A DNA stretch of 22,374 nt from a virus. How positions within the stretch are numbered: position 1 is the first letter of the stretch; the number at the start of each line of letters is the position of its first letter. Below, one piece after another: positions 4,607 to 21,362 of the stretch. The position numbers and the translations under genes are program-made. The notes beneath the pieces are model-generated. The model made no database searches. It was not told where the DNA came from and saw only the letters and a program-made list of their open reading frames with translations. The stretch is taken from IMG/VR virus record IMGVR_UViG_3300029319_000566, positions 1 to 22,374 of that record; one strand, given 5' to 3'.

Positions 4607-5728
4607 TTAACTTTTAACTTTTGAGAATTGCAAGTGATATGAAGGAGGACCAAATTCGTATCCCATCTCCATGTATATTGCTTTTCCAACTCGTGCAAAG
4701 TCGTCTTGGTCAATGTCTCTTACGAACACAGTTCCATATCCTGGGATATTTGTAAAAACTGGTTGTATGAAAGCAAAGTCAAGAATGAACGCTGATTCAG
4801 ATGGCATGATATTAGGGTCAATGACCATCATACCGATAGAACCAAACGGTGTTACAACAGTATCAATGTCGATACCTGCAACGTTTCTATCTCTTGGAAG
4901 AATAGCTGCGGCTAAACCAATAGTACCTCCAACTAATTCTTTGTTAAGAGCTAGTAATTGCTTAGGTGTAACTACTAATACAGGATTAATCATTGGCGCT
5001 GAAGCATCATATAGACGTTTCATTGCTTCTGCTATTGCATCCCATGATAAGTCACGAGCTGCAGTAGAGTCGTCTCCTCCAGAGTCACAATAGTGGATGT
5101 TACCACCTGTGCCAGTAGGAGCTGTTGAGTTATTTGCATTTGCATTTAACCCAGTCCACTCTAATAGTCCACGCATTTCACGTGTACCACTACCTGGTGT
5201 AGTGTTTGCACCGTCAGCGAATGTTCCGTTAAATGCGAACCATTCTACTTCCCTTGCTACTTTTTCGAGAGCCAAAGACATTTGCTCTGCAAATTCATCA
5301 ATGATTGGATTACCACCAGCTAATGCTAATTTATCACCAGCTGTTGTTGTTCCATCACCATCTGAAGCGTTAATAATATTAGCGCTCAAATCAAATGGAT
5401 TTTGATGTTGATATGTTGCCATTGCAGTGTAAGTCATCTTTACACCTTTATGGAAAACCTGAGTAACAGATGTGTATGCAACCCTGTCTCTACCTAAGTA
5501 TTCTGTAGGTTGAGCGCCTTCTTGACCTTTAGTAGGTTCAGAAGAAACGACTGCATTATCAGCTGCCTGGATTTGCCAGAAAGTTGATTGTAAGACTTTA
5601 CCACCGTTCAAGCCACCTGTTGCAGAGAGAAATGGTGTTCTTTGACCACCAACACGAAATAATTCACCAGAAAAGTTATTAATTTTCTGAGAATATATCG
5701 AGTCATTTGTCAGCGAAATTGCTGCCAT
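4607..5728 (-). CDS. Major capsid protein, HK97-fold, SU10-like
   Basis: Forms the icosahedral shell. The 373-aa length, the N-terminal segment with GELFRVGGQRTPFLSA and VLQSTFWQIQAAD, the central EQMSLALEKVAREVEWFAFNG (long spine-helix type) and the C-terminal FVRDIDQDDFARVGKAIYMEMGYEFGPP match the pattern of HK97-fold capsid proteins of the phage SU10 group (DUF5309-like). The start is fixed by a strong GGAGGT site 7 bases upstream. The gene follows the scaffold with a 41-base gap and precedes a small beta protein. No N-terminal prohead protease target is evident, and no protease gene is seen in the window. The assignment to capsid is firm; the exact family is from memory. Confidence 0.85.
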   Translation of the reverse strand: MAAISLTNDSIYSQKINNFSGELFRVGGQRTPFLSATGGLNGGKVLQSTFWQIQAADNAVVSSEPTKGQEGAQPTEYLGRDRVAYTSVTQVFHKGVKMTYTAMATYQHQNPFDLSANIINASDGDGTTTAGDKLALAGGNPIIDEFAEQMSLALEKVAREVEWFAFNGTFADGANTTPGSGTREMRGLLEWTGLNANANNSTAPTGTGGNIHYCDSGGDDSTAARDLSWDAIAEAMKRLYDASAPMINPVLVVTPKQLLALNKELVGGTIGLAAAILPRDRNVAGIDIDTVVTPFGSIGMMVIDPNIMPSESAFILDFAFIQPVFTNIPGYGTVFVRDIDQDDFARVGKAIYMEMGYEFGPPSYHLQFSKVKS

Positions 5729-5769: not shown

Positions 5770-6243
5770 TTATTTAGGTTGTTCTTTAAGAGCCTCTTGT
5801 GCGTATAGTCTTGCACGGATAGAATCTTTTGTACTACCCTTTGCAATGATTTGCTCTAGTTGCTCTTCAACACCTAATGGTACATCAGACTGTGAATTTG
5901 CATCAAGTGCAGCCACTCTAGACCTAGCATCATCTTGAACTACTTGCTGTTGTTCAGGTTGTGGTTCTTCCTTTACCTCAGTAGCAGGTTCAAAACCATA
6001 CTCATCTTTAGCAAACTGTGAAATAGCTTCTGCATTTACAGGGCCATCATACACTTGTTTTAACGCTTTACCGAAACCTTTGTCAGTAGATAAACCTAAC
6101 TGACCAAAGACCGAATCAATTTCTTTTTCCTTATAAGAAGCTAACTCTGCCTCTAATTTTTTGATAGATTCATCTTTTCTATCAATAGTTTCTCTCATTT
6201 GTTTTACACCATTTTCTGCTGGTGCATCAAATTCATTTTCCAT
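5770..6243 (-). CDS. Capsid scaffold protein (157 aa)
   Basis: A highly charged protein with a predicted coiled coil at about residues 13-41 (MRETIDRKDESIKKLEAELA), a low-complexity E/Q/P stretch around 93-106 (EVKEEPQPEQQQVV) and a charged helical C-terminus. This composition, its length and its place directly upstream of the capsid gene are those of phage scaffolding proteins, which guide capsid assembly and leave or are degraded before packaging. The start is set by an AGGAGGT site. It is the first gene after a roughly 200-nt non-coding leader, unlike the rest of the tightly packed operon, so its expression may be separately controlled. Confidence 0.8.
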   Translation of the reverse strand: MENEFDAPAENGVKQMRETIDRKDESIKKLEAELASYKEKEIDSVFGQLGLSTDKGFGKALKQVYDGPVNAEAISQFAKDEYGFEPATEVKEEPQPEQQQVVQDDARSRVAALDANSQSDVPLGVEEQLEQIIAKGSTKDSIRARLYAQEALKEQPK

Positions 6244-6264
6244 TAGTACCTCCTCTATGTGTTT

Positions 6265-6408
6265 ACCTGTCAGACAAGACCATAGGAATCTTGTCGCGGT
6301 GCTACCTTACCACTTGGTTTGTATCTCTGGTAGCTATAAGCTACAAACCCATTACTCTACGATTTTATTACAAGCTTTCTACGTAGGCTTTGAAAGCTGA
6401 TTGCAGGT
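6265..6408 (-). ncRNA. Candidate structured leader RNA upstream of scaffold/capsid genes
   Basis: The gap between the 316-aa gene and the scaffold gene can fold into a closed multi-helix structure. A closing helix pairs CTG/CAGGT (6397-6399 and 6404-6408) with ACCTG/CAG (6265-6269 and 6271-6273). Inside are three hairpins: AGCTTTC/GAAAGCT (6373-6379 with 6392-6398), GGTTTGTA/TACAAACC (6316-6323 with 6342-6349, itself capped by a small GCT/AGC stem) and GACAAGA/TCTTGTC (6273-6279 with 6289-6295). Edges of the outer helix overlap two hairpins by one or two bases, so alternative folds may compete. It ends about 14 bases before the scaffold ribosome site. Function unknown; a cis-regulator of the capsid cassette is the natural guess. 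Helices were found by eye. Confidence 0.5.
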
Positions 6409-6438
6409 CTTTAAGCGGACCACGCAACGCATAAACTT

Positions 6439-6444
6439 ATTATA
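6439..6444 (-). promoter_or_regulatory. Candidate -10 box for scaffold/capsid transcript
   Basis: A perfect TATAAT on the minus strand lies 3 bases after the stop codon of the 316-aa gene, in GTGTATAAT context, at the start of the only long non-coding gap of the late block. A -35 element is weak (ACTGGA or similar at 16-18 bases). A start about 7 bases downstream would put the whole folded leader in the message. Extra transcription of scaffold and capsid, the most abundant products, makes biological sense. Confidence 0.4.
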
Positions 6445-6446
6445 CA

Positions 6447-7397
6447 CTAATTCTCTATAAGTCCAGTAACTTCGTCACCTTTTTTAGCAGCGCCTAATGT
6501 CAATCCACCTTGTGATTGTATTTCTGCTTGTATTCTTTGCAACCTTCTATTAGCTGCTGTATCACCTAATGCTGCTTTTTCTAATGTTTCTAATTGTAAA
6601 TTTCTTCCTACATTTGCTGCAGATTGCATTGCAGCACCTGCTTGACTATATAACTGTCTAGCTGATGCTTGTGTTAAACCTTGTTTTCTTAATGCTTCAA
6701 ACTGTGCAAATGTTCTACTAAATCCTCTAGATGTAGCCTCTGCTTGTAGTTGTATAGTTGCTATATCTCCTGCTAACACTTTATCTTGTATTTTAGGATT
6801 AATTAATGCAGCAAATATAGTTGGTTGGTCAACATTAATATTGTATTGTTCTCTAAATAATCTTTCTACTTCAGGTATTTGGTCTTGAATGCCAGAATAT
6901 ACAATATCTATACGTTGTTGAAACTCTGCACCTGATACTTCAGATGTAACTAATTGTTGAAAATCATCCTCAAAATCAGTAAAATCCTGTATTCCTACTT
7001 CACCTAATGTTTGTTTGTAAGTTGCAATAGTAGATAAAGCACTGACTTCATCCATGATTAAACTACCATCAGCTCTTTTAAGATAACCAAAACTTTCTTT
7101 CCATTCAGATGTATTTCTAGTTGCACCTATTGCTATATCTGGGTCACCTGATTTAACCCATTCTTTTGCAAATGCATTTAGTACGGACTCTGGTAAAAAT
7201 GCAAACATTGCTTGTCCTATTTGGTAACCTTCTGTTTCTTGTCTTTGTGTTTCTTGGACTGCAGACATGTCACTACCACCGAAATCTGTACCTGCTACAG
7301 AAGGGTCTCTAGAATAACCTACTTGTTCTAACTCTATAGCTCTTTCTTCAGATACTTCATAAAAAGTATCTAAATCTTTTCTATATACTCTTACCAT
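6447..7397 (-). CDS. Putative internal/ejection virion protein (316 aa)
   Basis: Begins MVRVYRKDLDTFYEVSEERA and is mostly helical and glutamine-rich, with a C-terminal half (PTIFAALINPKIQDKVLAGD ... ALRKQGLTQASARQLYSQAG ... ALGDTAANRRLQRIQAE) that looks like a helical rod. From memory this C-terminal pattern recalls structural proteins of actinobacterial phages, which is not proof. It is the last of five consecutive large helical proteins after the portal, joined by a TAATG overlap to the 414-aa gene and preceded by an AGGGAAG site. I infer a component of the internal core ejected with DNA. No enzyme motif is seen. Confidence 0.5.
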   Translation of the reverse strand: MVRVYRKDLDTFYEVSEERAIELEQVGYSRDPSVAGTDFGGSDMSAVQETQRQETEGYQIGQAMFAFLPESVLNAFAKEWVKSGDPDIAIGATRNTSEWKESFGYLKRADGSLIMDEVSALSTIATYKQTLGEVGIQDFTDFEDDFQQLVTSEVSGAEFQQRIDIVYSGIQDQIPEVERLFREQYNINVDQPTIFAALINPKIQDKVLAGDIATIQLQAEATSRGFSRTFAQFEALRKQGLTQASARQLYSQAGAAMQSAANVGRNLQLETLEKAALGDTAANRRLQRIQAEIQSQGGLTLGAAKKGDEVTGLIEN

Positions 7398-9471: not shown

Positions 9472-10841
9472 TACGCTCCAAACTGTGCAGACATAAGTTT
9501 ATTCTGCATATCCTTAATAGCTTTACCTTTTTCAAATGCACTCATTTCATCTTCCATAGCATCTTCAAACTTACCTTCAAATATTTCTTGTGGTGATGAT
9601 GGTAACTGACTTGACAACTCACTAAGGTTGGTAGTTGTAGTAACTTGTGTACCTACATCTAAACCACCACCTTGACCTGGATTTATTGTTGTAGTTTCTT
9701 TCAAATCAAAATTATCTAATGCATATTGAAATGATTTATATTGTGCATAACCTTCATCATAACTACTTGCTAGTGCAGATGACCACTCAGTTAATTCACC
9801 AGCTGTAGCACTTCTACCTATGTTTGCTACAAAATATGCATCAACCATAGTTTCTAAATTTTCTGGAGAAGGTGGTATATACTTTATAGCTTCTGCTTCT
9901 AAGGCTTTATCTAGTTCTAATTTATCTAACTCAATATTTTGTCTGCCTATTTCTTGTACTGCATAAGCAAATAAGTTTCTTTCAAAACTTATGTCCATAT
10001 CTTGATATTGAACATCAGCAAAAAAAATTGGTTCTTGTGACATTATGTCTGCTCTTAATGCAGAATCAGGACCAGCATTTATATTTTGGTCTGCCCATAA
10101 CATAACTTCTTCTATTTTTTGTCTTAGCACTTCACTATATTGTCCTAAAGTACCTGCAAAATCTTCTTTAGTTGCAATATTGTGGTCTATCAAAAACTTT
10201 TGAAATGCTATTTTCTCACTGTATGTAGAGTTCATAGCCAAGATATGAGAATGTAATACATTATTAAAGTATCCTTGTGATACTTGTAATTGACCTTCTC
10301 CTGTTGGAACTAACCTAGTACCACTCTGTGGGTCTATAGCAAATGTATTATTAATTACAAATGTTTTTAACTCATCAAGAATTGTTTCATTATCTTTACC
10401 AACAGTATTCATACCATATTGTTGTGCAATAGCACCAATAGTTCCGTCTTGTAATGCACGGTTAAAAGATACTAATGTGTTTTCTAATGCTTCTTGTTGT
10501 TCTGGTGGTAAAGTTATTCCTTGTTCACCTTCAATACTAGGTAAGTCAACACCTGCAAAATCTACTTGTTGTACTGTAGAATCAAATATACTTTTAATAG
10601 AATCTATATCACCTTGCAATGCAGCATCTTGTAATTGTTTTATTACCTCTGGTTTATCTGCAAAATACACATTATTTTCTAAAGATTTTATAGCACTATT
10701 AATATTAAAATTACCTGTTAGTTGTAATTCTGGAAACATAGATTGATAAGTAATTAAAAAATCTCTAATAGCTTGTTTAGAAGCTTTTACTTTTTCTTCT
10801 TGTTCTTGTGCTTGTATACCTCTAGCTACAGGCTGTACCAT
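9471..10841 (-). CDS. Putative internal virion protein (456 aa)
   Basis: A helical, glutamine-rich protein with an N-terminal coiled region (QEQEEKVKASKQAIRDFLIT) and, at about 321-361, a segment PENLETMVDAYFVANIGRSA followed by TAGELTEWSSALASSY. This resembles the short helix-GR-x-A-helix motif seen in several virion proteins and in DUF4214-like repeats. The C-terminal 75 residues contain a T/G-rich linker and an acidic helix. It follows the giant gene by a TAATG overlap behind a GGAGAATA site. I read it as a partner of the 1916-aa protein in the ejection apparatus; no enzyme motif is visible. Confidence 0.5.
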   Translation of the reverse strand: MVQPVARGIQAQEQEEKVKASKQAIRDFLITYQSMFPELQLTGNFNINSAIKSLENNVYFADKPEVIKQLQDAALQGDIDSIKSIFDSTVQQVDFAGVDLPSIEGEQGITLPPEQQEALENTLVSFNRALQDGTIGAIAQQYGMNTVGKDNETILDELKTFVINNTFAIDPQSGTRLVPTGEGQLQVSQGYFNNVLHSHILAMNSTYSEKIAFQKFLIDHNIATKEDFAGTLGQYSEVLRQKIEEVMLWADQNINAGPDSALRADIMSQEPIFFADVQYQDMDISFERNLFAYAVQEIGRQNIELDKLELDKALEAEAIKYIPPSPENLETMVDAYFVANIGRSATAGELTEWSSALASSYDEGYAQYKSFQYALDNFDLKETTTINPGQGGGLDVGTQVTTTTNLSELSSQLPSSPQEIFEGKFEDAMEDEMSAFEKGKAIKDMQNKLMSAQFGA

Positions 10842-13800
10842 TATTCTCCATCTATATAATCCAATACTTCAAAGTCATCTCTATATAACTTTAACATAAC
10901 TCCGTTCCAGACACTCCAAAACTCTGGATTGTCTGCTATAATCTGCTGTGCTTTATTATACATCCATATTCTCATAGATAATGCTCTTGTATCATCAGAC
11001 TTTAACCACCAGTCTTTTGTTGCAGTAGGTGAATATTCTTGTGATAGTTTTTCCATTTCTTCCCAGAAAGGCATTATTTCTGCAAATCCTTTTCCTGCTT
11101 CTGTTTCCATAACACCAGGTATGTTTCTCCATTTACGTCTCATTTCACTAAAAACATCTGCTGTTCTAACAGGTGTTAATAAACCATATTCATCTGCTTG
11201 GAATCCAGGTAATGCTTCTTTTAATCCTTCTCTAAATACTCTTTTAAGTTGCGTTTTCTTTTTATAATCAATATCTAATTTTTCTAAATTAGTTGTAAAT
11301 GTTTTATATCTAAAGAAACCTATTGTGTCATTAACAGCTCTTCTGTATTGGTCAGGTGATAATAAACTTTTTTCTCTTACAATATCATTCCAATCTTTTT
11401 CTTCATTAGGATTATCGGTATTTAAGTAATAACCACTAAGTTCTAATTGGTCAAATATTTCTTTATTCTCTGCTTGATATTGTTTTACTCTTACACTTGT
11501 AGGTTGTTTACCTATTTCTGATTGTGTTTTAGGACTTAAAATATAAGGATGTTCAATACCATACAATTCAAAAAACTCATTGTATGTATCTATATCATTA
11601 CCTTCATGTTTTTCTCGTATCCTTACAAATTCTTCATACAATACAGCTGTACCCCATAAATTACCTACATCATCTTTCATAAAAAATTCTGGTTTAAATC
11701 CAGTAGGACCAACAAATTGGTATATAAATTCCATTATAAATAAATTTCTAGATGCATTTTTGGAATATTCTAAGAAAGCATTGTCTATTTGTCTTTGTGT
11801 AATAGTCTCAGGAGTCCATTGATTAGGATATAATTTATTTAAATAAACACTTAACTTACCATCTTTATATAGTTTATTGTTTTGTCCAGATGCCATACCA
11901 TATCTAAAAACATCTATAGTTGCACTTGCACGCATTTTGTGTATTTCTTTAGAATTTTCATTTATATTATCAAAACTATCATTTGATGCTAATGCTGCCA
12001 TTAATTTTTTATATACAGGAGTTACAGCTATTACATCTGACACATCTTCTGGTGGACCAAAGTCACCAAACAAACTATCTTTTATATAATTCGATATATC
12101 GTTTATATAAGGATTACTTGTATTTTCAGGTAATAATCTATTTACAGCAAAACCAACCATAGGGTTAGGACCTGGTACAAAACCTTGTCCTAATAAGTTG
12201 ACACCTGCTAAATATCCTCTAGGTGATATTGTAGTTTCTGAATCTTCACCATAAATAACATTAGTCATCCAACCACCAAAAGGCATAACAAACATATCTT
12301 CTTCTGGATTTCTTGGGTCAGGTACAATAAAACCATCATCAGAACTAGAACCATAACTATCTGCTGCACCACCACCACGTAAACTAACATGTGCTTTTCT
12401 TAATACTGTAGGGTTAGCTGCAAGTAACTGTCCCCATGTTTGGAATACTTCAAACCATACTTCTGCGAATGGAAATATGTTTAATAACTTATCTGATACT
12501 GCATGTTTTTGTCTTGTGTCATAAAGTAAATTTTTAACCATAGACAATCCAAATGCTTTACTTTCAGCGTTAATTGCATTGTAATTATCTATCTTTCCAT
12601 TTTTATGTAAAGCTTTCATACCTGTAAGTTCTCGTAATGCTGATGTTGGGATGCCAGCACCTTTAGCTTCTTTTATAAACTGTGTTTGTAATTTAGGTGA
12701 CAACTCTTTCATTTTGTCTGTAATATACATCCATCTATATTGTTTAAATACTGGTGACCTGTTTAAATAATTTATAGGTTTTGTCATTAATCTATCAAAT
12801 AGATACTGTTGTGCTTCATTTAAAATATCTTCTGTTGCTTGTAATAAACCTTTAGGTGCATTGTCTGCTTCATCTGTTAAACTAGGAACTTTTACAAAAC
12901 CACCATCTAATCTTGTTTCTCCATAATATTCTTCTAAAGCATCAGTAACTTTTTTTTGTTTAAATCTTTTAACTGTTTTAAAAGGATTTTCATAAAAATC
13001 TAGTACTTCTCCATCAAGTGTTTCTAATTTACCATCTGCTATAGCTGCACGTATTCTTTTATCACCAAAGTTAGATGTTTGTAATTGATATCTATATTTA
13101 CCATCAGGTTGTTTTATTAAATCTTTACCAACTGTAACATTGCCACCAGTTTTAATTCTTATTCTTGATTCTAAATATTGTAAGTGTTGGTCTGTAAAAT
13201 CATTATTTTTTAATATTTGTTGCCATCTTGTACCACCAGCATTAAATAAATCCATTCTTGCTTGTCTACCTACAGTAGAGTTCATCCATTTAGTAAGTTC
13301 AGCAGAACCATATCCATGCTTTGCAACTTGTTGTGCAATAGGGTCATTTCTTAATGACATTAATTCATAAAACATATGTTTTGCATATCTTTTAGTTCCT
13401 ATTTCTTTTTTAGAATACGCTATATATTCTGTGTATTTATTTCTTTGTCTTCTACCAGGACCAATAAGGTCTGTAAATTTCATAATTCTTGCAGCTTCTT
13501 GTGCTTCTAATGACATTAATAATTGTTCACCATCTGTAACTTTTGCTTTTTTAAAAGGCAGTGCATTCAATACTTTGCCTATTTTTGAATTAGGGTCATG
13601 TGATGCTATCCACTGTATTGTTTTAAAAGGATTATTATAAAATGCATCTAACCCAGCTGTTGCAACACGTGCTTGTTCTTCTAAAAATACACGAGTAAAA
13701 AATGCAAGTCTTAATAAAACTAATGGTTTAAAAACATTTCTTGTATAAAAATTAGCTAAATTATTAAAATAATCTTCTTCTAATCTTTTTACACTAATTA

Positions 13801-16591
13801 CACCATCTTCAAATGGATTGACTAAAGATACATCATCTGTATTTAAAAGTTTTCTATATCGATATTTTCCGTAATCAAATACATTTTTAACATTTCTACT
13901 AAATATCCCTAATACGTCTGCATCATCATAAACCTGAAACATACCTGACATAGCTCTATTTAATAATTTGTAATCCATAAGTGGTGCTATATTGTCAGCC
14001 ATTTCAGAAAACATAGAACCTGTCATTACAGGCATGTCAACCATTTCACCTGTTACAGGGTTTTTCATATTGTACATTTCATAACCATCACCAACGTTAG
14101 GTAAGTTTTTATTATTTCTACCTGCACCATATATTTTTTGTTTTTCTAAACCTTCAAACATTTTGCCTGCATGTTGTTGTACATATTCCCAACCTTTTTC
14201 TCCACCACGTTTAAAAACTAATGCTACATCTATATCAGCTTGTTCTTTAGCAAAATCTCTTACAGCATTTTTATTTGCAAAATCTAGTTCTAAAAATTTA
14301 TTTAATCTTTGTGACATTTCTTTGCCACCATATCCATTAATTTGTAAATGACTTACTAATTGTCTATAACCAACTGATGCATTGTTTAAAGGTATTCCCA
14401 TATCAGGTATAACACCTAATAGTTTTCTATAATATGGATTGTAAGAAGAATTAAAATTAGAACTAAATCCTAAGAATTTTTCAAACTCTAATCTAGGTCC
14501 ACCAATATCATCAAGTATTTTTTGTGCTTTTAAGACATTACCTGCTGCATCCATAGTATCTACTACTGCTGGACCACCTGTAAGTTGTTTTGCAGCTCTA
14601 CTTCTAGACAAACCTCTAAGACCAGGTATATAACCTAAACCTTCATCTACAGCAACTCTTGCTGGTCTTAAAGCTTCTCCTAAATAACTACCTATACTTC
14701 TGTATGCAGCTTGTTCATTACCTATAGCAGACAATGCTCCACCTACTGTTTTACCGTATATACCACCTTTTTGTTGTAATTGTGTACCTTTACGTGCAGT
14801 TTGTTGCAACATTTTATTTAAAACAAATGAACCTTTTACAGGTAACATACCGTCTACAAAGTCTTCACTTAGTCTATACATACGGATATTTGCATTTTCA
14901 CTAATTTCTAAACCTGTATCCATCATTGCAGCAAATACTTCTCTTGCATTACCATCTGTTCCTTCTGCAAGGTTTTTTTGCACAGGCCCAGGTAGTTTTC
15001 CTAATATAGGATTTGTAGCTATAACATCTAAATCATCAATAGTTGTATCATCAACAGCTCTAAAAAAATCATCCATAACTGGTTGGTCAAGTATTTGTTT
15101 CTTAGTTAATGAAAAAAATCTAGGTACTGCACCAAAAAATGTATGATTCTTTTTTTCTCTTTTAACAGCTTTTCTAATATCTTTGTATGTAGGTGTAATA
15201 TCATCAAGTTCTTTAAATTTACCTGTCTTAGGATTAGTAATTTTACTAAAATCACCTTTTCCTGTAAACGGGTCAATCTCACCATCAGCAGCATTTCGTA
15301 TAGCTTTTCTTATAGCTACAGGGTTTATGCTTGCTAACTTACCTGTTTTTTTATTTCTACCTAATGTTTGTGCTGTTTCTAATGCAGGGTTAACTTGTCT
15401 AAAACCTTTTCTTAAATTACGTACACCTTTTATACCTTTACCAGCCAATAACTCTGGTAGTAATTGATAACTAGCATCAATAGTTCCAGACATTAAATCA
15501 AAAGCTCTACTACCTGGTTCATATATTTCACCTGCATATACTTTGCCAGGAGAATATTCAAGCAAATAGTTTTTATCTTCAAACTCTGGTTTATACAAAT
15601 CTTGTGTCATATTCAAACCCATAAAGTTAAAGTTTGATTTTCTTCTACCTGCATAAAAATTTATCTGATTAGGTTTAAATGCTGATGTATAGTGTATTTG
15701 ACCATTATCATCAAAACCTTTTAATGGTTCACCTATTTTGTTATATATAAACTTTCTAGCTTCATCAGGTGACATACCGTAATTATTAATTAAATCTATG
15801 TAATAAGGTGTATCTTCTGCTTTTACAGACTCTAAAGTCACTTTAGTAGCTCTATCAAAGTTAACAGGTTTACCATTTATAACTTGTCTCATCATATTCC
15901 ATAAGACTGGTTCTCCACCCATTTGATTTGCTTCACGTATCATATCAATATGTTTTCTAATATCACCAATTAAATTGGTATCTTTACCAATATTTTCTAC
16001 TTCAGTCATACTTAAATCTATTTGTAAGTTCTTTTGTGCAGCTTCTTTTGTAAAACCTTGTTGTAATAATTTATCGTATTCTCTTAAATCTCTTAAATAT
16101 GCTTGTGACCTACCAACAACCATGGCTTGTCCTGGTACTAAAGCATTTACAGTACTTGCAATTACAGACCATTTACCTGACGGTCCATATGTTTGAAATA
16201 ATGCATCAAGTCCAGCAAACAACCAAACACCTATTTGTGCATCACCTCTAAGTAATGTACCAAGATTCATCTTCATATTGTCTTCTAAGTTCTCATATTG
16301 GTATCTTTCTTGCATTTCTTTCCAGATTTGTGATTCTGTTTTAACTTTGTTTAATGCAAAATTATTAGATATATCGTTTGCTATAGGACTATTTGCTGTA
16401 CCACCAGCTAAAACATAAGGAACTGATATATCTGCAGGCCATTGATGTTGTTCTGTTACTTTTTCTAATTCTTCTGTTACACCATCTAATACAGAAAATT
16501 GTGTATTGTATTGACCTATTTGAAAATCGTTACGTTTATTACCTATGTAGTAATCGTTTTCTTCGTTTTCATCGAATAGATGGAAGCCCAT
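10841..16591 (-). CDS. Giant internal/ejection protein (1916 aa)
   Basis: At 5.75 kb this is the largest gene in the window, about a quarter of it. The protein is soluble-looking and mainly helical with many aromatic residues. A hydrophobic, helix-like stretch at about residues 952-973 (FKPLVLLRLAFFTRVF) and a glycine-rich region near 1405-1415 (RGGGAADSYGSSSDDG) followed by FVPGPNPMVGFAVNRLLPEN around 1480 are the most distinctive parts. Giant helical proteins encoded next to a portal act as internal core or ejection proteins (T7 gp16, P22 gp16/gp20 in role), forming the conduit for DNA into the cell. No lysozyme, transglycosylase, protease or RNA polymerase motif could be recognised. It is about 600 aa longer than T7 gp16. 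TAATG overlaps link it to both neighbours. Confidence 0.6.
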   Translation of the reverse strand: MGFHLFDENEENDYYIGNKRNDFQIGQYNTQFSVLDGVTEELEKVTEQHQWPADISVPYVLAGGTANSPIANDISNNFALNKVKTESQIWKEMQERYQYENLEDNMKMNLGTLLRGDAQIGVWLFAGLDALFQTYGPSGKWSVIASTVNALVPGQAMVVGRSQAYLRDLREYDKLLQQGFTKEAAQKNLQIDLSMTEVENIGKDTNLIGDIRKHIDMIREANQMGGEPVLWNMMRQVINGKPVNFDRATKVTLESVKAEDTPYYIDLINNYGMSPDEARKFIYNKIGEPLKGFDDNGQIHYTSAFKPNQINFYAGRRKSNFNFMGLNMTQDLYKPEFEDKNYLLEYSPGKVYAGEIYEPGSRAFDLMSGTIDASYQLLPELLAGKGIKGVRNLRKGFRQVNPALETAQTLGRNKKTGKLASINPVAIRKAIRNAADGEIDPFTGKGDFSKITNPKTGKFKELDDITPTYKDIRKAVKREKKNHTFFGAVPRFFSLTKKQILDQPVMDDFFRAVDDTTIDDLDVIATNPILGKLPGPVQKNLAEGTDGNAREVFAAMMDTGLEISENANIRMYRLSEDFVDGMLPVKGSFVLNKMLQQTARKGTQLQQKGGIYGKTVGGALSAIGNEQAAYRSIGSYLGEALRPARVAVDEGLGYIPGLRGLSRSRAAKQLTGGPAVVDTMDAAGNVLKAQKILDDIGGPRLEFEKFLGFSSNFNSSYNPYYRKLLGVIPDMGIPLNNASVGYRQLVSHLQINGYGGKEMSQRLNKFLELDFANKNAVRDFAKEQADIDVALVFKRGGEKGWEYVQQHAGKMFEGLEKQKIYGAGRNNKNLPNVGDGYEMYNMKNPVTGEMVDMPVMTGSMFSEMADNIAPLMDYKLLNRAMSGMFQVYDDADVLGIFSRNVKNVFDYGKYRYRKLLNTDDVSLVNPFEDGVISVKRLEEDYFNNLANFYTRNVFKPLVLLRLAFFTRVFLEEQARVATAGLDAFYNNPFKTIQWIASHDPNSKIGKVLNALPFKKAKVTDGEQLLMSLEAQEAARIMKFTDLIGPGRRQRNKYTEYIAYSKKEIGTKRYAKHMFYELMSLRNDPIAQQVAKHGYGSAELTKWMNSTVGRQARMDLFNAGGTRWQQILKNNDFTDQHLQYLESRIRIKTGGNVTVGKDLIKQPDGKYRYQLQTSNFGDKRIRAAIADGKLETLDGEVLDFYENPFKTVKRFKQKKVTDALEEYYGETRLDGGFVKVPSLTDEADNAPKGLLQATEDILNEAQQYLFDRLMTKPINYLNRSPVFKQYRWMYITDKMKELSPKLQTQFIKEAKGAGIPTSALRELTGMKALHKNGKIDNYNAINAESKAFGLSMVKNLLYDTRQKHAVSDKLLNIFPFAEVWFEVFQTWGQLLAANPTVLRKAHVSLRGGGAADSYGSSSDDGFIVPDPRNPEEDMFVMPFGGWMTNVIYGEDSETTISPRGYLAGVNLLGQGFVPGPNPMVGFAVNRLLPENTSNPYINDISNYIKDSLFGDFGPPEDVSDVIAVTPVYKKLMAALASNDSFDNINENSKEIHKMRASATIDVFRYGMASGQNNKLYKDGKLSVYLNKLYPNQWTPETITQRQIDNAFLEYSKNASRNLFIMEFIYQFVGPTGFKPEFFMKDDVGNLWGTAVLYEEFVRIREKHEGNDIDTYNEFFELYGIEHPYILSPKTQSEIGKQPTSVRVKQYQAENKEIFDQLELSGYYLNTDNPNEEKDWNDIVREKSLLSPDQYRRAVNDTIGFFRYKTFTTNLEKLDIDYKKKTQLKRVFREGLKEALPGFQADEYGLLTPVRTADVFSEMRRKWRNIPGVMETEAGKGFAEIMPFWEEMEKLSQEYSPTATKDWWLKSDDTRALSMRIWMYNKAQQIIADNPEFWSVWNGVMLKLYRDDFEVLDYIDGE

Positions 16592-17129: not shown

Positions 17130-18908
17130 TTAAATTCCAAATGCCTGTGCCATTGTTGGAACACCTTGACCTCCACCTTGTGCTAATAGTTGTTGTTGTA
17201 TCATTGCTTCCTGTTCAGGAGACATCTGTGGTTCTTCAGGTGTATAGAATTGTTTCATTATTTCTGTAATAGCATTTGGATTTTCATAAATTGCTATTGC
17301 AGCCATAGTTGCAGATGGGTCACCTTGTGCCGACCTTGCAAGTATAGAGTCAAACAATACACCTTCTGCTTTGTTTTTTCTAATACGCTCTTGTACTTTT
17401 GCTATATTTTCTAGACCGTCAATATTATCTTGTAATGTTTCTACATCTATAACACCAGCTTGTAAAAGTTGTAAACCTGTAACAATTTTCTGTGGTTCAT
17501 CAAAACCAGCCATAACACCGTAGATACGTCTTGTAGTAAAATTACCTCCTATATCTTTAAGAGGTTGATAATTCTCACTAAAAGCTGCACCTGCGTAATA
17601 ACCTGCCATAGGTTTTTTAGTTATACCTTGTTGATAAGATAGAACTACATCTAGCTCTAATCTTTTTGCATCCATATCAATTAAACCATGTTTAATTATT
17701 TCTCTATATTCATTTATCATCAAAGACATAGTGCTATTTAATTCTGATAAACCTGCACCAGTTACAAAAGAGTTTGGAGATTGTGAGTCATCAGTTACTG
17801 GATAACCACCTACCATTCTTAGTTGTCGTTCTAATCTATCAATTTGTTGAAACAACTGATATGGAATATTGTTTGATGGTTTAGATACTTGTGTACCAGG
17901 AGACAAGTAGTTTACAGCAAATCTACCTTTTCTATATTGACCAGACTCTAACTCACCTGATATGTTTGTTTCAGTAAATACTGAGTCTTCCATAGCTATA
18001 GCTGACATAATATTTATTTTTGCCATCATAGCCATTAAACCTATTACGTGGTCATATTGTCCTTTGAGTTCATCAAAAGAAACTTTCTTCATAAACACAA
18101 ATGGTGGTGTAGATAATACGTTAGGTATAAAATCTAATATCATTGACCTTTCAGGAAATACAACGTATGTACCACCTTGGTCATAATATTCTATTATCTT
18201 TACACCTTGTGTTGTATTGTCTTCCCAGTTAGAAGATGTATTACTATCGTATGTTAAAAAAGATGATGCTGCTGTAGATATGTTATCTGTATCATCTTCA
18301 TCTTTGTTTAATATCTCATCTGCAAACTCTGGATAAATTTGTGCAAGTTTATATCTAGGTACTCTTCTAACAACTGCTAGTTCTCTTGGTTGTTGGTCAG
18401 GACCAAAGTTTCCTGGAAATGTATCGTATGGGTCTCTTAGTTCTGCAGAAGGATATGCAAAACCATTTTTATCTATCTTAGTTGTCATAACCCAAGCACA
18501 ATAACCATAACCAGGTAACCATCTAGATGCTTGTGCTAATTGTAAATTTAAATTTTGTTTGTCATCATAGTTTGTAACAATACGTTCTAGTTTATCTGCC
18601 ATAGCTTTAGACCTTGTAGAGTCATTGTTGTTAGGTACATCTACTCTTACTTGTGGTACACCAGATACTTTTTGTGCAAGTCTATCAATACCAGATTGCA
18701 ACATGTTTGGTGCAGGTAACAAGTCAGCATCTGACGTTTCCATTGTGTTACCTAATAATGCTTTTATACCATCAGGTCCACCATTGAGTATTGCTTTTAT
18801 TCTTGCTTTAGATATTTGTCTATCTTGTACACCTTTACCAGAAGTTAATGTTGCAGCAGACCTTACGATTTCTTGATAATCTTTTAGTCCTATGTTCTCT
18901 ATTGCCAT
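17130..18908 (-). CDS. Portal protein (592 aa)
   Basis: Forms the dodecameric ring at the special capsid vertex through which DNA is packaged and ejected. It directly follows the large terminase (10-base overlap), has the size of podoviral portals, and shows the expected mix of an N-terminal helical part, a beta-rich wing (RWLPGYGYCAWVMTTKIDKN, LRDPYDTFPGNFGPD), a long stem/clip region (VSFDELKGQYDHVIGLMAMM) and a glutamine/methionine-rich helical C-terminus (MSPEQEAMIQQQLLAQGGGQ), which in other portals builds the crown or barrel. No sequence motif is diagnostic for portals, so this rests on architecture and position, but I consider it solid. Confidence 0.85.
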   Translation of the reverse strand: MAIENIGLKDYQEIVRSAATLTSGKGVQDRQISKARIKAILNGGPDGIKALLGNTMETSDADLLPAPNMLQSGIDRLAQKVSGVPQVRVDVPNNNDSTRSKAMADKLERIVTNYDDKQNLNLQLAQASRWLPGYGYCAWVMTTKIDKNGFAYPSAELRDPYDTFPGNFGPDQQPRELAVVRRVPRYKLAQIYPEFADEILNKDEDDTDNISTAASSFLTYDSNTSSNWEDNTTQGVKIIEYYDQGGTYVVFPERSMILDFIPNVLSTPPFVFMKKVSFDELKGQYDHVIGLMAMMAKINIMSAIAMEDSVFTETNISGELESGQYRKGRFAVNYLSPGTQVSKPSNNIPYQLFQQIDRLERQLRMVGGYPVTDDSQSPNSFVTGAGLSELNSTMSLMINEYREIIKHGLIDMDAKRLELDVVLSYQQGITKKPMAGYYAGAAFSENYQPLKDIGGNFTTRRIYGVMAGFDEPQKIVTGLQLLQAGVIDVETLQDNIDGLENIAKVQERIRKNKAEGVLFDSILARSAQGDPSATMAAIAIYENPNAITEIMKQFYTPEEPQMSPEQEAMIQQQLLAQGGGQGVPTMAQAFGI

Positions 18909-20809: not shown

Positions 20810-20833
20810 TAAAATCTATATCCTTGTAGATTG

Positions 20834-20861
20834 TTGCTTAGATAGAATTATATGTTATAGT
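20834..20861 (+). promoter_or_regulatory. Plus-strand extended -10 promoter for small-gene block
   Basis: TTGCTT at 20834-20839, a 16-base spacer and TATAGT at 20856-20861 with a TG one base upstream (TGTTATAGT, extended -10). A sigma70-type promoter firing right would start at about 20868 and transcribe the 37-aa gene and everything beyond. It lies inside the divergent intergenic region and shares bases with the opposing promoter. Confidence 0.5.
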
Positions 20862-20875
20862 TCTACTAAATACAA
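20847..20875 (-). promoter_or_regulatory. Minus-strand promoter for terminase/late block
   Basis: A perfect TATAAT (20847-20852 on the plus coordinate, read on minus) is preceded at 17 bases by TTGTAT (20870-20875), a half-matching -35. It drives toward the terminase start at 20809. It interleaves with the plus-strand promoter, so the two may interfere or be jointly regulated. Confidence 0.5.
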
Positions 20876-20919
20876 ACACTCAAACTAAGTATTTTGTTAC
20901 AGGTGAAGGTGCAATCGGG

Positions 20920-21033
20920 ATGCAAAAAGCTGCTGACTGGCAAGACAGTAACGTAGAAACGCAAAAGCAGTACCCAAGGAGATTAGAAAAGTTTGATTTA
21001 GGCCTCCGCGACTATATGCCCGCTTACGCCTAA
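20920..21033 (+). CDS. Small hypothetical protein (37 aa)
   Basis: A 37-codon frame, MQKAADWQDSNVETQKQY ... DYMPAYA, starting at an ATG with AAGG about 10 bases upstream and roughly 50 bases downstream of the plus-strand promoter. The frame is open upstream back to 20842 without another ATG or GTG start, which supports real coding selection but leaves the start slightly uncertain. It is charged, with two basic residues in the centre (PRRLEKFDLGLRD) and no cysteine or membrane segment. No family recognised. Its codon use is richer in G and C than the flanking non-coding DNA, which argues that it is a gene. Confidence 0.5.
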   Translation: MQKAADWQDSNVETQKQYPRRLEKFDLGLRDYMPAYA

Positions 21034-21097
21034 AACCCCTGTACTTACTTACTGTTTTATGTACAAAAGATTACCAACATATTTTTCTAGACATACG

Positions 21098-21109
21098 TAC
21101 TATATAGTA
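21098..21109. repeat. 12-bp perfect palindrome
   Basis: TACTATATAGTA reads the same on both strands. It may be an operator for a dimeric regulator or simply a chance AT-rich palindrome; it is the first of a string of inverted repeats. Confidence 0.5.
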
Positions 21110-21128
21110 AGAGTGCAGATTAACATCT

Positions 21129-21223
21129 GCTAGTCATACAATACTTACAGACAGATAAAATATACATACCTTCGGTATATATTTTACTGCTGTAATGTAT
21201 TGCTGTATGTAATACAGACTAGC
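21129..21223 (+). other. 95-nt near-continuous hairpin
   Basis: Helices nest from outside in: GCTAGTC/GACTAGC (21129-21135 with 21217-21223), CAATAC/GTATTG (21139-21144 with 21197-21202), TTACAG/CTGTAA (21145-21150 with 21090+100 series, i.e. 21190-21195), CAG/CTG (21152-21154 with 21187-21189), TAAAATAT/ATATTTTA (21156-21163 with 21179-21186) and ATAC/GTAT (21166-21169 with 21175-21178) around a CTTCG loop. Bulges inside are one or two bases; the largest unpaired stretch is on the outer 3' side. About 34 bp pair without any coding constraint. It has no T-run after it, so it is not a standard terminator. It could be an RNase III substrate, a small RNA or a replication hairpin. Confidence 0.7.
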
Positions 21224-21227
21224 TTGC

Positions 21228-21243
21228 TACTGTATGTACAGTA
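21228..21243. repeat. 16-bp palindrome, copy A
   Basis: TACTGTATGTACAGTA: 7-bp arms around TG. Its reverse complement is identical, base for base, to copy B at 21399-21414. Candidate operator for a dimeric regulator. Confidence 0.6.
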
Positions 21244-21257
21244 TTTAAATTAAATAC
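21241..21257. repeat. 17-bp inverted repeat
   Basis: GTATTTAA and TTAAATAC flank a single central A. It overlaps the last three bases of the preceding palindrome. AT-rich, so chance cannot be excluded. Confidence 0.45.
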
Positions 21258-21287
21258 GACCATATGTAGTTTAAATGTATTCCTATA

Positions 21288-21331
21288 TAGATATATGTTT
21301 TATATATCCTTTGGATATAAAACAATATCTA
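21288..21331 (+). promoter_or_regulatory. Hairpin upstream of 86-aa gene
   Basis: TAGATAT/ATATCTA (21288-21294 with 21325-21331) closes a stem TGTTTTAT..ATCC/GGATATAAAACA (21296-21309 with 21313-21324) with a 2-base bulge and a TTT loop. It ends 32 bases before the start codon at 21363, leaving the ribosome site free. One of a series of pre-gene hairpins on this strand. Confidence 0.6.
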
Positions 21332-21362
21332 TTATGTCAACTAGATTATGAAAGGAGATTAT

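Follow-up and report, generated by a model that had tools for sequence, protein, structure and literature searches.

Comparison of sequences indicates that the gap in front of the scaffold-like gene in a 22,374-nt stretch of viral DNA (the window, by which we mean the whole stretch analysed) encodes a conserved structured RNA that is a row of H-type pseudoknots, four in leaders of the window's own type (type A) and three in two further types (C and D). The initial annotation had predicted a folded leader RNA at this place, with a closing helix around three hairpins; the conserved, structured leader stands, and the fold proves to be a series of H-type pseudoknots in place of the helix and its hairpins. 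Structural conservation in relatives, which the annotation had proposed looking for, is provided by covariation in three separate alignments.

The gap before the scaffold and capsid genes

Every open reading frame of at least 150 aa in the window lies on the minus strand. An uncoded gap of 203 nt (positions 6244-6446, minus strand) runs from ORF 6447-7397(-), whose sole match is phrog_8424 (unknown function), to ORF 5770-6243(-). The next-largest gaps of the late block are only 69 and 41 nt, and neighbouring genes mostly overlap or touch, in agreement with the annotated gap of about 200 bases in a tightly packed block. That this gap lies directly before scaffold and capsid was also borne out. 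The major capsid protein gene (4607-5728, minus strand, 373 aa) matches phrog_1328 and Pfam SU10_MCP (144.5 bits; cut-off 24.1), and the 157-aa product of 5770-6243 (minus strand), which matches phrog_7813 of unknown function, is scaffold-like by position, occupying the same place as the annotated scaffold gp06 of Mycobacterium phage Mendokysei. The pre-scaffold gap of Mendokysei itself is just 69 nt, compared with 203 nt in the window.

Elsewhere in the window, a 1916-aa ORF (10841-16591) and a 592-aa protein (17130-18908) found no counterpart in Pfam or PHROGs under the thresholds applied; the latter may be the portal protein, judged by position. Upstream of the terminase gene, about 500 nt (20810-21350) are without a long ORF. 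This region, perhaps an origin or regulatory region, contains a 37-codon ORF (20920-21033, plus strand) ending in DLGLRDYMPAYA, and nested palindromes seen by eye at about 21120-21260, before short plus-strand ORFs.

Relatives and leader types

Relatives were gathered by way of the capsid, searching IMG/VR three times and GTDB genomes once, which yielded at least 162 capsid-bearing loci on approximately 157 contigs, six of the 162 with too little upstream sequence. Among the matches listed, the leader was present in the same place in all 156 loci with enough upstream sequence, and these loci held 125 distinct leader sequences; four contigs were found twice (L062/L180, L063/L197, L065/L234 and L242/L260), L216 and L225 mark two places of a single contig, and many other loci are near-identical. 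The contig carrying L216 and L225 (IMGVR_UViG_3300020468_000009, 52,898 bases) has two capsid genes about 41 kb apart, perhaps through assembly redundancy at the ends of a ~42-kb genome.

Leaders were assigned to types by short sequence patterns of our own making, whose letters are conserved partly by choice, giving 67 loci of type A, 42 of type C, 45 of type D (three of them the mosaic type B: L065, L234 and L246, two of which are one contig) and two others. The window leader is of type A and identical to that of L001. The two loci that fit no type pattern, L226 and L248, form a fifth type (E) by eye; their leaders lie approximately 0.5-0.7 kb upstream of the capsid gene, and the last pseudoknot of L248, read by eye, consists of CAAAUUA/UAAUUUG with loop CACAC pairing with GUGUG, and abuts AGGAG. 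Capsids are 70-86% identical to that of the window (12 compared), and any capsids of types A and D are at least 63% identical. The leaders of types A, C and D have little sequence in common, with most letters differing between types, and a nucleotide search with the window leader against 50,697 named phage records found no match.

Architecture of the pseudoknot chain

The fold was read by eye, each unit consisting of a hairpin stem (S1) whose loop bases pair downstream (S2); all positions below are on the minus strand. Pseudoknot 1 has a short S1 (6415-6430; GCG 6430-6428 with CGC 6417-6415), in which two of four type A pairs changed on both sides and the outermost pair is not formed in 19 of 56 type A rows, that of the window included; the same stem covaries in types C and D, in other letters. 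Its S2 (6402-6426) pairs UGC 6426-6424 and GGUC 6421-6418 with GACC 6409-6406 and GCA 6404-6402, and the outer two pairs of the type C stem occur as CU/AG, GA/UC, CC/GG, GU/AC and UG/CA. In pseudoknot 2, S1 (6373-6398; AGCUUUC 6398-6392 with GAAAGCU 6379-6373) lacks both-sided changes in types A and C, and its counterpart in type D changed on both sides in all eight pairs; the pairing count of the type A stem is lowered by five rows (the L029 group) that are one base out of alignment. S2 of this unit (6357-6386; CUACG 6386-6382 with CGUAG 6361-6357) varies in one of five pairs in type A, from A-U to G-C in 9 of 56 rows, and on one side only in type D.

Pseudoknot 3 is seen in type A; its S1 (6316-6349; GGUUUGU 6349-6343 with ACAAACC 6322-6316) changed on both sides in four of seven type A pairs and was not seen in types C and D. 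Three of six pairs changed on both sides in its S2 (6301-6334; GCUACC 6334-6329 with GGUAGC 6306-6301), which appears in relatives as GUUACCC/GGGUAAC or CCCUACC/GGUAGGG. In pseudoknot 4 of type A, S1 (6273-6295; GACAAGA 6295-6289 with UCUUGUC 6279-6273) is paired in 100% of cells with five of seven pairs changed on both sides, and S2 (6255-6285; CUAUG 6285-6281 with CAUAG 6259-6255), which ends directly before the Shine-Dalgarno sequence, is paired in 280 of 280 cells with three of five pairs changed on both sides, the variants in relatives being CACAG/CUGUG and CACGG/CCGUG. In the type D alignment (A5), no variation was seen in the last hairpin stem.

The closing helix of the initial annotation, which we read as the outer helix UUUAUG/CAUAGA, pairs in only 226 of 333 type A cells. 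The partner that its 3' strand takes instead is the last hairpin loop, a pairing present in all 280 cells. Energy folding of the gap as a single sequence, a method blind to pseudoknots, gave no significant result (z = -1.29), with 16 of 200 shuffles folding equally well.

Covariation and strand

Three alignments, made from plain sequence, were scored. Type A (A2) comprised 56 distinct of 67 loci and 48 pairs; type C (A3) comprised 30 of 32 distinct rows and 36 pairs, the near-duplicates L181 and L214 being left out; and type D comprised 33 of 35 distinct rows (A4, leaving out L009 and L011) or 31 rows and 35 pairs (A5, leaving out the mosaic rows L065 and L246). In type A, 97.6% of 2638 cells are paired, 20 of 48 pairs have both-sided changes, and the covariation score is 0.162, compared with 0.077 for shuffled and at most 0.049 for slid controls. 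The corresponding values are 96.9%, 12 of 36, and 0.294 (0.122 shuffled, at most 0.084 slid) for type C, and 97.8%, 17 of 35, and 0.305 (0.160 shuffled, at most 0.084 slid) for type D. Scores are thus about twice those of shuffles and more than three times those of slid controls. Support is uneven between helices, and the number of further pair types in type C does not exceed shuffles (24 versus 27.5), while that in type D was reached by 19 of 500 shuffles.

Because the structure was read from the same alignments, all column pairs (18,952 in A, 18,565 in C and 18,763 in D) were also ranked without it. Among the five best pairs, three (A), five (C) and three (D) fall in the structure, with 0.01 expected; among the best 40, 10, 7 and 9 do so, with about 0.1 expected. 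The remaining top-ranked pairs lie outside the structure, as shared ancestry would give. G-U cells exceed A-C cells by about 8 to 1 (85:11 in A, 58:7 in C and 54:5 in D), indicating that the folded molecule is the mRNA-sense (minus-strand) RNA. A remnant of coding sequence, which the annotation had named as a finding that would speak against a structured leader, is contradicted by stops in all three sense frames of all 56 type A leaders and by leader lengths that take all three residues modulo 3; the antisense frames contain stops in 56, 56 and 55 of the 56.

Spacing between the promoter box and the ribosome-binding site

The TATAAT box and perfect AGGAGGT noted in the initial annotation were located at 6444-6439 and 6254-6248, respectively. 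The former (6439-6444, minus strand) is a putative promoter -10 box, and all 67 type A loci have TATAAT at the corresponding distance from the Shine-Dalgarno sequence, none lacking it. The latter is the Shine-Dalgarno sequence of the scaffold gene (6248-6254, minus strand), its GGAGG standing 5 nt ahead of the ATG at 6243. A transcript is expected to start a few nucleotides after a -10 box, where the first pseudoknot begins. The first paired base follows the box (TATAAT or TATACT) by 6-8 nt in all 56 type A rows, by 7-11 nt in type C, and by 7 nt in 29 of 31 type D rows, the other two being without a box. At the other end, the last paired base lies 0-1 nt from the Shine-Dalgarno core in all 56 type A rows, 4-5 nt from it in type C and 5-9 nt in type D, such that the last pseudoknot abuts the core only in the window's type among the three aligned. 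From -10 box to Shine-Dalgarno sequence, the aligned leaders measure approximately 150-195 nt.

A consensus match sought at the window promoter revealed no canonical -35 element at 16-18 nt; the relative L262 has TTGACT-17-TATACT. No terminator-like site was found on the sense strand of the leader in the window, including between leader and gene, and attenuation is therefore unlikely.

Distribution and co-inheritance

The leader patterns matched 279 IMG/VR stretches (A 99, D 89 and C 91), of which 249 carry the leader (71, 89 and 89, respectively), on contigs that overlap heavily with those found by capsid. Beside each of the 249, and on its strand, lies the scaffold, capsid or upstream gene. 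The remaining 30 stretches (28 of type A, 2 of type C), which would place the leader before other genes, are chance matches in coding sequence; for the 28 stray type A stretches, the nhmmer match is absent or weak (E 0.01-0.2). A type A covariance model found a single copy per record in seven type A phage records (42-45 kb) and in two type B records (those of L065 and L246, E 8.9e-14 and 1.9e-16), and a single copy in the metagenome-assembled genome (MAG) described below; six records of types C, D and E gave none.

Agreement in leader type was scored on nearest relatives more than 5% apart. Leader type agrees with the scaffold in 126 of 126 tests and with the upstream gene in 130 of 131, compared with 110 of 121 for the capsid, and capsids of types C and D are up to 97% identical where the scaffolds average 27%. 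These comparisons suggest that upstream gene, leader and scaffold have been exchanged as a block against the capsid, which would disfavour the capsid protein as a sequence-specific binder of the leader and leave the scaffold protein possible. Type B is a mosaic, with pseudoknots 1 and 2 like those of type A and a last pseudoknot like that of type D, and for this reason single pseudoknots may be exchanged between leaders as well.

Host

The only two capsid relatives in GTDB genomes are on two contigs of one MAG, Actinomycetota bacterium RS345. An 800-base middle piece of each of L018 and L261 is unchanged in the other, indicating that the phages on MAG contig PBPX01000048.1 and on the IMG/VR contig of L018 are almost the same. 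The 42 genomes of the order of RS345 are about 0.6-1.1 Mb, a size that fits streamlined marine Actinobacteria such as 'Ca. Actinomarinales' (PMC7771536). When these 42 genomes of the order of L261's MAG were searched for leader copies under stricter filters with model R1, which sees types A and B only, that MAG alone matched. WhiB, which would point to an actinobacterial host, was missing from all 15 phage records searched for it, and the control of that search worked. Streamlined marine Actinobacteria are a plausible host, and we go no further than plausible because phage contigs can be misbinned and WhiB is absent.

Comparison with known RNAs

The comparison with Rfam that the initial annotation had proposed gave no Rfam 15 match in the window at the gathering threshold, and no known riboswitch, tRNA or tmRNA identity was matched at threshold (Rfam, ARAGORN). 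A permissive Rfam search of the window leader and of one leader each from types C and D returned either nothing or scores far below gathering; one match, to SAM-II, fell on the antisense strand of one of the latter two leaders with an E of 3.1. The string AAGGTAGCACCGCG at 6295-6308 is T-box-like by consensus; there is no T-box match in Rfam, and AAGGTAGCACCGCG overlaps pseudoknot 3 S2 and varies in relatives. In tmRNA, pseudoknots 1-4 are chained in one RNA, a likeness to the type A leader, yet ARAGORN finds no tRNA or tmRNA gene in the window.

STAXI RNAs resemble the leader in having tandem pseudoknots (three or four here, by covariation), a likeness of layout only and not of membership. 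They occur near genes for SSB, integrase, topoisomerase and antirestriction proteins and often have UUCG tetraloops, whereas the units of our leader differ from one another, its consensus folds contain no UUCG tetraloop, and it precedes scaffold and capsid genes; the location typical of STAXI was found for none of the 249 pattern-found leaders, all of which lie beside the scaffold, capsid or upstream gene. STAXI was likewise not matched by cmscan at E up to 10 for the window leader and up to 5 for one type C and one type D leader.

The translational operator of S15 is a single pseudoknot bound by the gene's own product. Like our leader, the S15 (rpsO) operator is an mRNA pseudoknot and the T4/T2 gene 32 leader has an H-type pseudoknot in a 5' phage mRNA leader, upstream of the ribosome-binding site; the gene 32 message is very stable (PMC3014915), and its one pseudoknot lies 67 nt upstream of the start codon and is followed by an unstructured A+U-rich stretch. 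The window RNA differs in having three or four pseudoknots in a row, the last of which abuts the Shine-Dalgarno sequence in type A, and in belonging to another gene and phage group. Marine phages also carry the manA and wcaG RNAs and a glutamine riboswitch, which are structured and partly leader-positioned; they accompany metabolic genes or tmRNA in phages of cyanobacteria, SAR11 and OM43 (PMC2864571, PMC9004378, PMC9964418). The nearest layouts are thus the T4 gene 32 leader, with a single pseudoknot, and STAXI, in tandem but with DNA-manipulation genes. Our survey of the open literature, which took in few subscription papers or preprints and covered pseudoknots in tandem within phage leaders, structured RNAs of phages, RNAs beside phage capsid genes and H-type pseudoknots near phage Shine-Dalgarno sequences, turned up no account of this RNA.

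Proposed function

We give about even weight to the reading that the RNA is a cis-acting 5' leader that shields the end of the mRNA and keeps the scaffold ribosome site open. Sequence comparison shows the pseudoknots and the strand that folds, together with their constant position and spacings, and the mechanism is what we infer beyond that. The gap would form the 5' untranslated leader of a separate scaffold-capsid mRNA, with transcription probably starting from the TATAAT box directly at pseudoknot 1 to give a knotted 5' end. An RNA with a pseudoknot at its very 5' end offers no free end to the degradation enzymes RppH, RNase E and RNase J. The first pseudoknot of the leader would likewise leave 5'-end-dependent RNases without a single-stranded foothold, giving a long life to the mRNA from which the most abundant proteins are made. 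A pseudoknot that ends at an unpaired Shine-Dalgarno sequence can sit on the 30S platform, as the S15 operator does. The last pseudoknot of the leader may similarly keep the Shine-Dalgarno sequence unpaired and give the 30S subunit a defined docking site, from which large amounts of scaffold, and then capsid, would be made. Counting against protection and docking, a role in protection or boosting alone does not obviously call for four pseudoknots, the -35 of the window is poor, pseudoknot 2 S1 lacks both-sided changes in types A and C, and types C and D have 4-9 nt before the Shine-Dalgarno sequence. The 5' strand of that stem, moreover, is almost constant in types A and C and could form a weak pairing with the Shine-Dalgarno sequence (-4.4 and -5.2 kcal/mol, compared with -7.2 and -8.9 for the S1 stem), which would fit a switch instead.

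Such a switch, in which this strand either stays in its stem or pairs with the Shine-Dalgarno sequence as decided by an unknown ligand or by the order of transcription, seems unlikely to us. Pseudoknots beside a Shine-Dalgarno sequence are typical of several riboswitches, GCUUUC of type A can pair with GGAGGU in 331 of 336 cells, and GUCUU of type C can pair with AGGAC, the strands hardly varying; the alternative pairing is nevertheless weak, half G-U in type A and without compensatory change, has by eye no counterpart in types B and D, and is accompanied by no Rfam riboswitch at threshold. Few unpaired letters are common to types A, C and D by eye. As the main rival to our reading, we hold it possible, if doubtful, that the leader is an autoregulatory operator whose pseudoknots are bound by a phage protein, most likely the scaffold, which would shut off its own translation once heads are supplied, as T4 gp32 does on its leader pseudoknot. 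Gene 32 provides a phage precedent (PMC3014915), and leader and scaffold types agree in all 126 nearest-neighbour tests. Two recurrences across types, seen by eye, are candidate protein contacts: CC starting the 5' strand of S2 and AG(A/U)G after its 3' strand. The leader adjoins the scaffold gene, however, so that linkage alone explains the agreement, and the upstream gene agrees nearly as well (130/131); the capsid is an unlikely sequence-specific binder, since capsids as much as 97% identical go with type C and type D leaders that have little sequence in common.

Two further explanations dispense with a role in translation or in RNA. High structural conservation, and a size close to that of phi29 pRNA, would suit a noncoding RNA in its own right, released from the leader for instance to serve a structural or packaging task and playing no part in scaffold translation. 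We consider this very unlikely, as nothing terminator-like was found in the window between the leader and the gene, the last pseudoknot reaches the Shine-Dalgarno sequence in type A and comes to 9 nt or less from it in C and D, and none of the 249 pattern-found copies is away from these genes. A DNA-level element resembling RNA, such as an origin or a recombination or packaging site, would account for a position near a module boundary, where leader, scaffold and upstream gene stay together and the capsid goes apart. The large excess of G-U over A-C on one strand in three alignments and the kept spacings to promoter box and Shine-Dalgarno sequence make this highly improbable.

More tentatively, the protective, ribosome-docking leader may represent mRNA leaders of a new class, built as a modular chain of self-standing pseudoknots that acts as nuclease-resistant 5' cap and ribosome-docking platform. 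Such a chain would be selected for its shape more than its sequence, would run from the first transcribed base up to the Shine-Dalgarno sequence or a point shortly before it, and would be exchanged in single units and in linkage with the scaffold. The families of sequences assembled here are ready for the study of 5'-end protection and ribosome docking by pseudoknots, and a compact RNA of this kind could show how a tailed phage sets its scaffold and capsid output. Three or four pseudoknots before the head genes have been kept in a clade of marine phages, perhaps of streamlined Actinobacteria; if our reading is true, a pseudoknot-chain leader would set the amount of scaffold and capsid made in a streamlined marine host.
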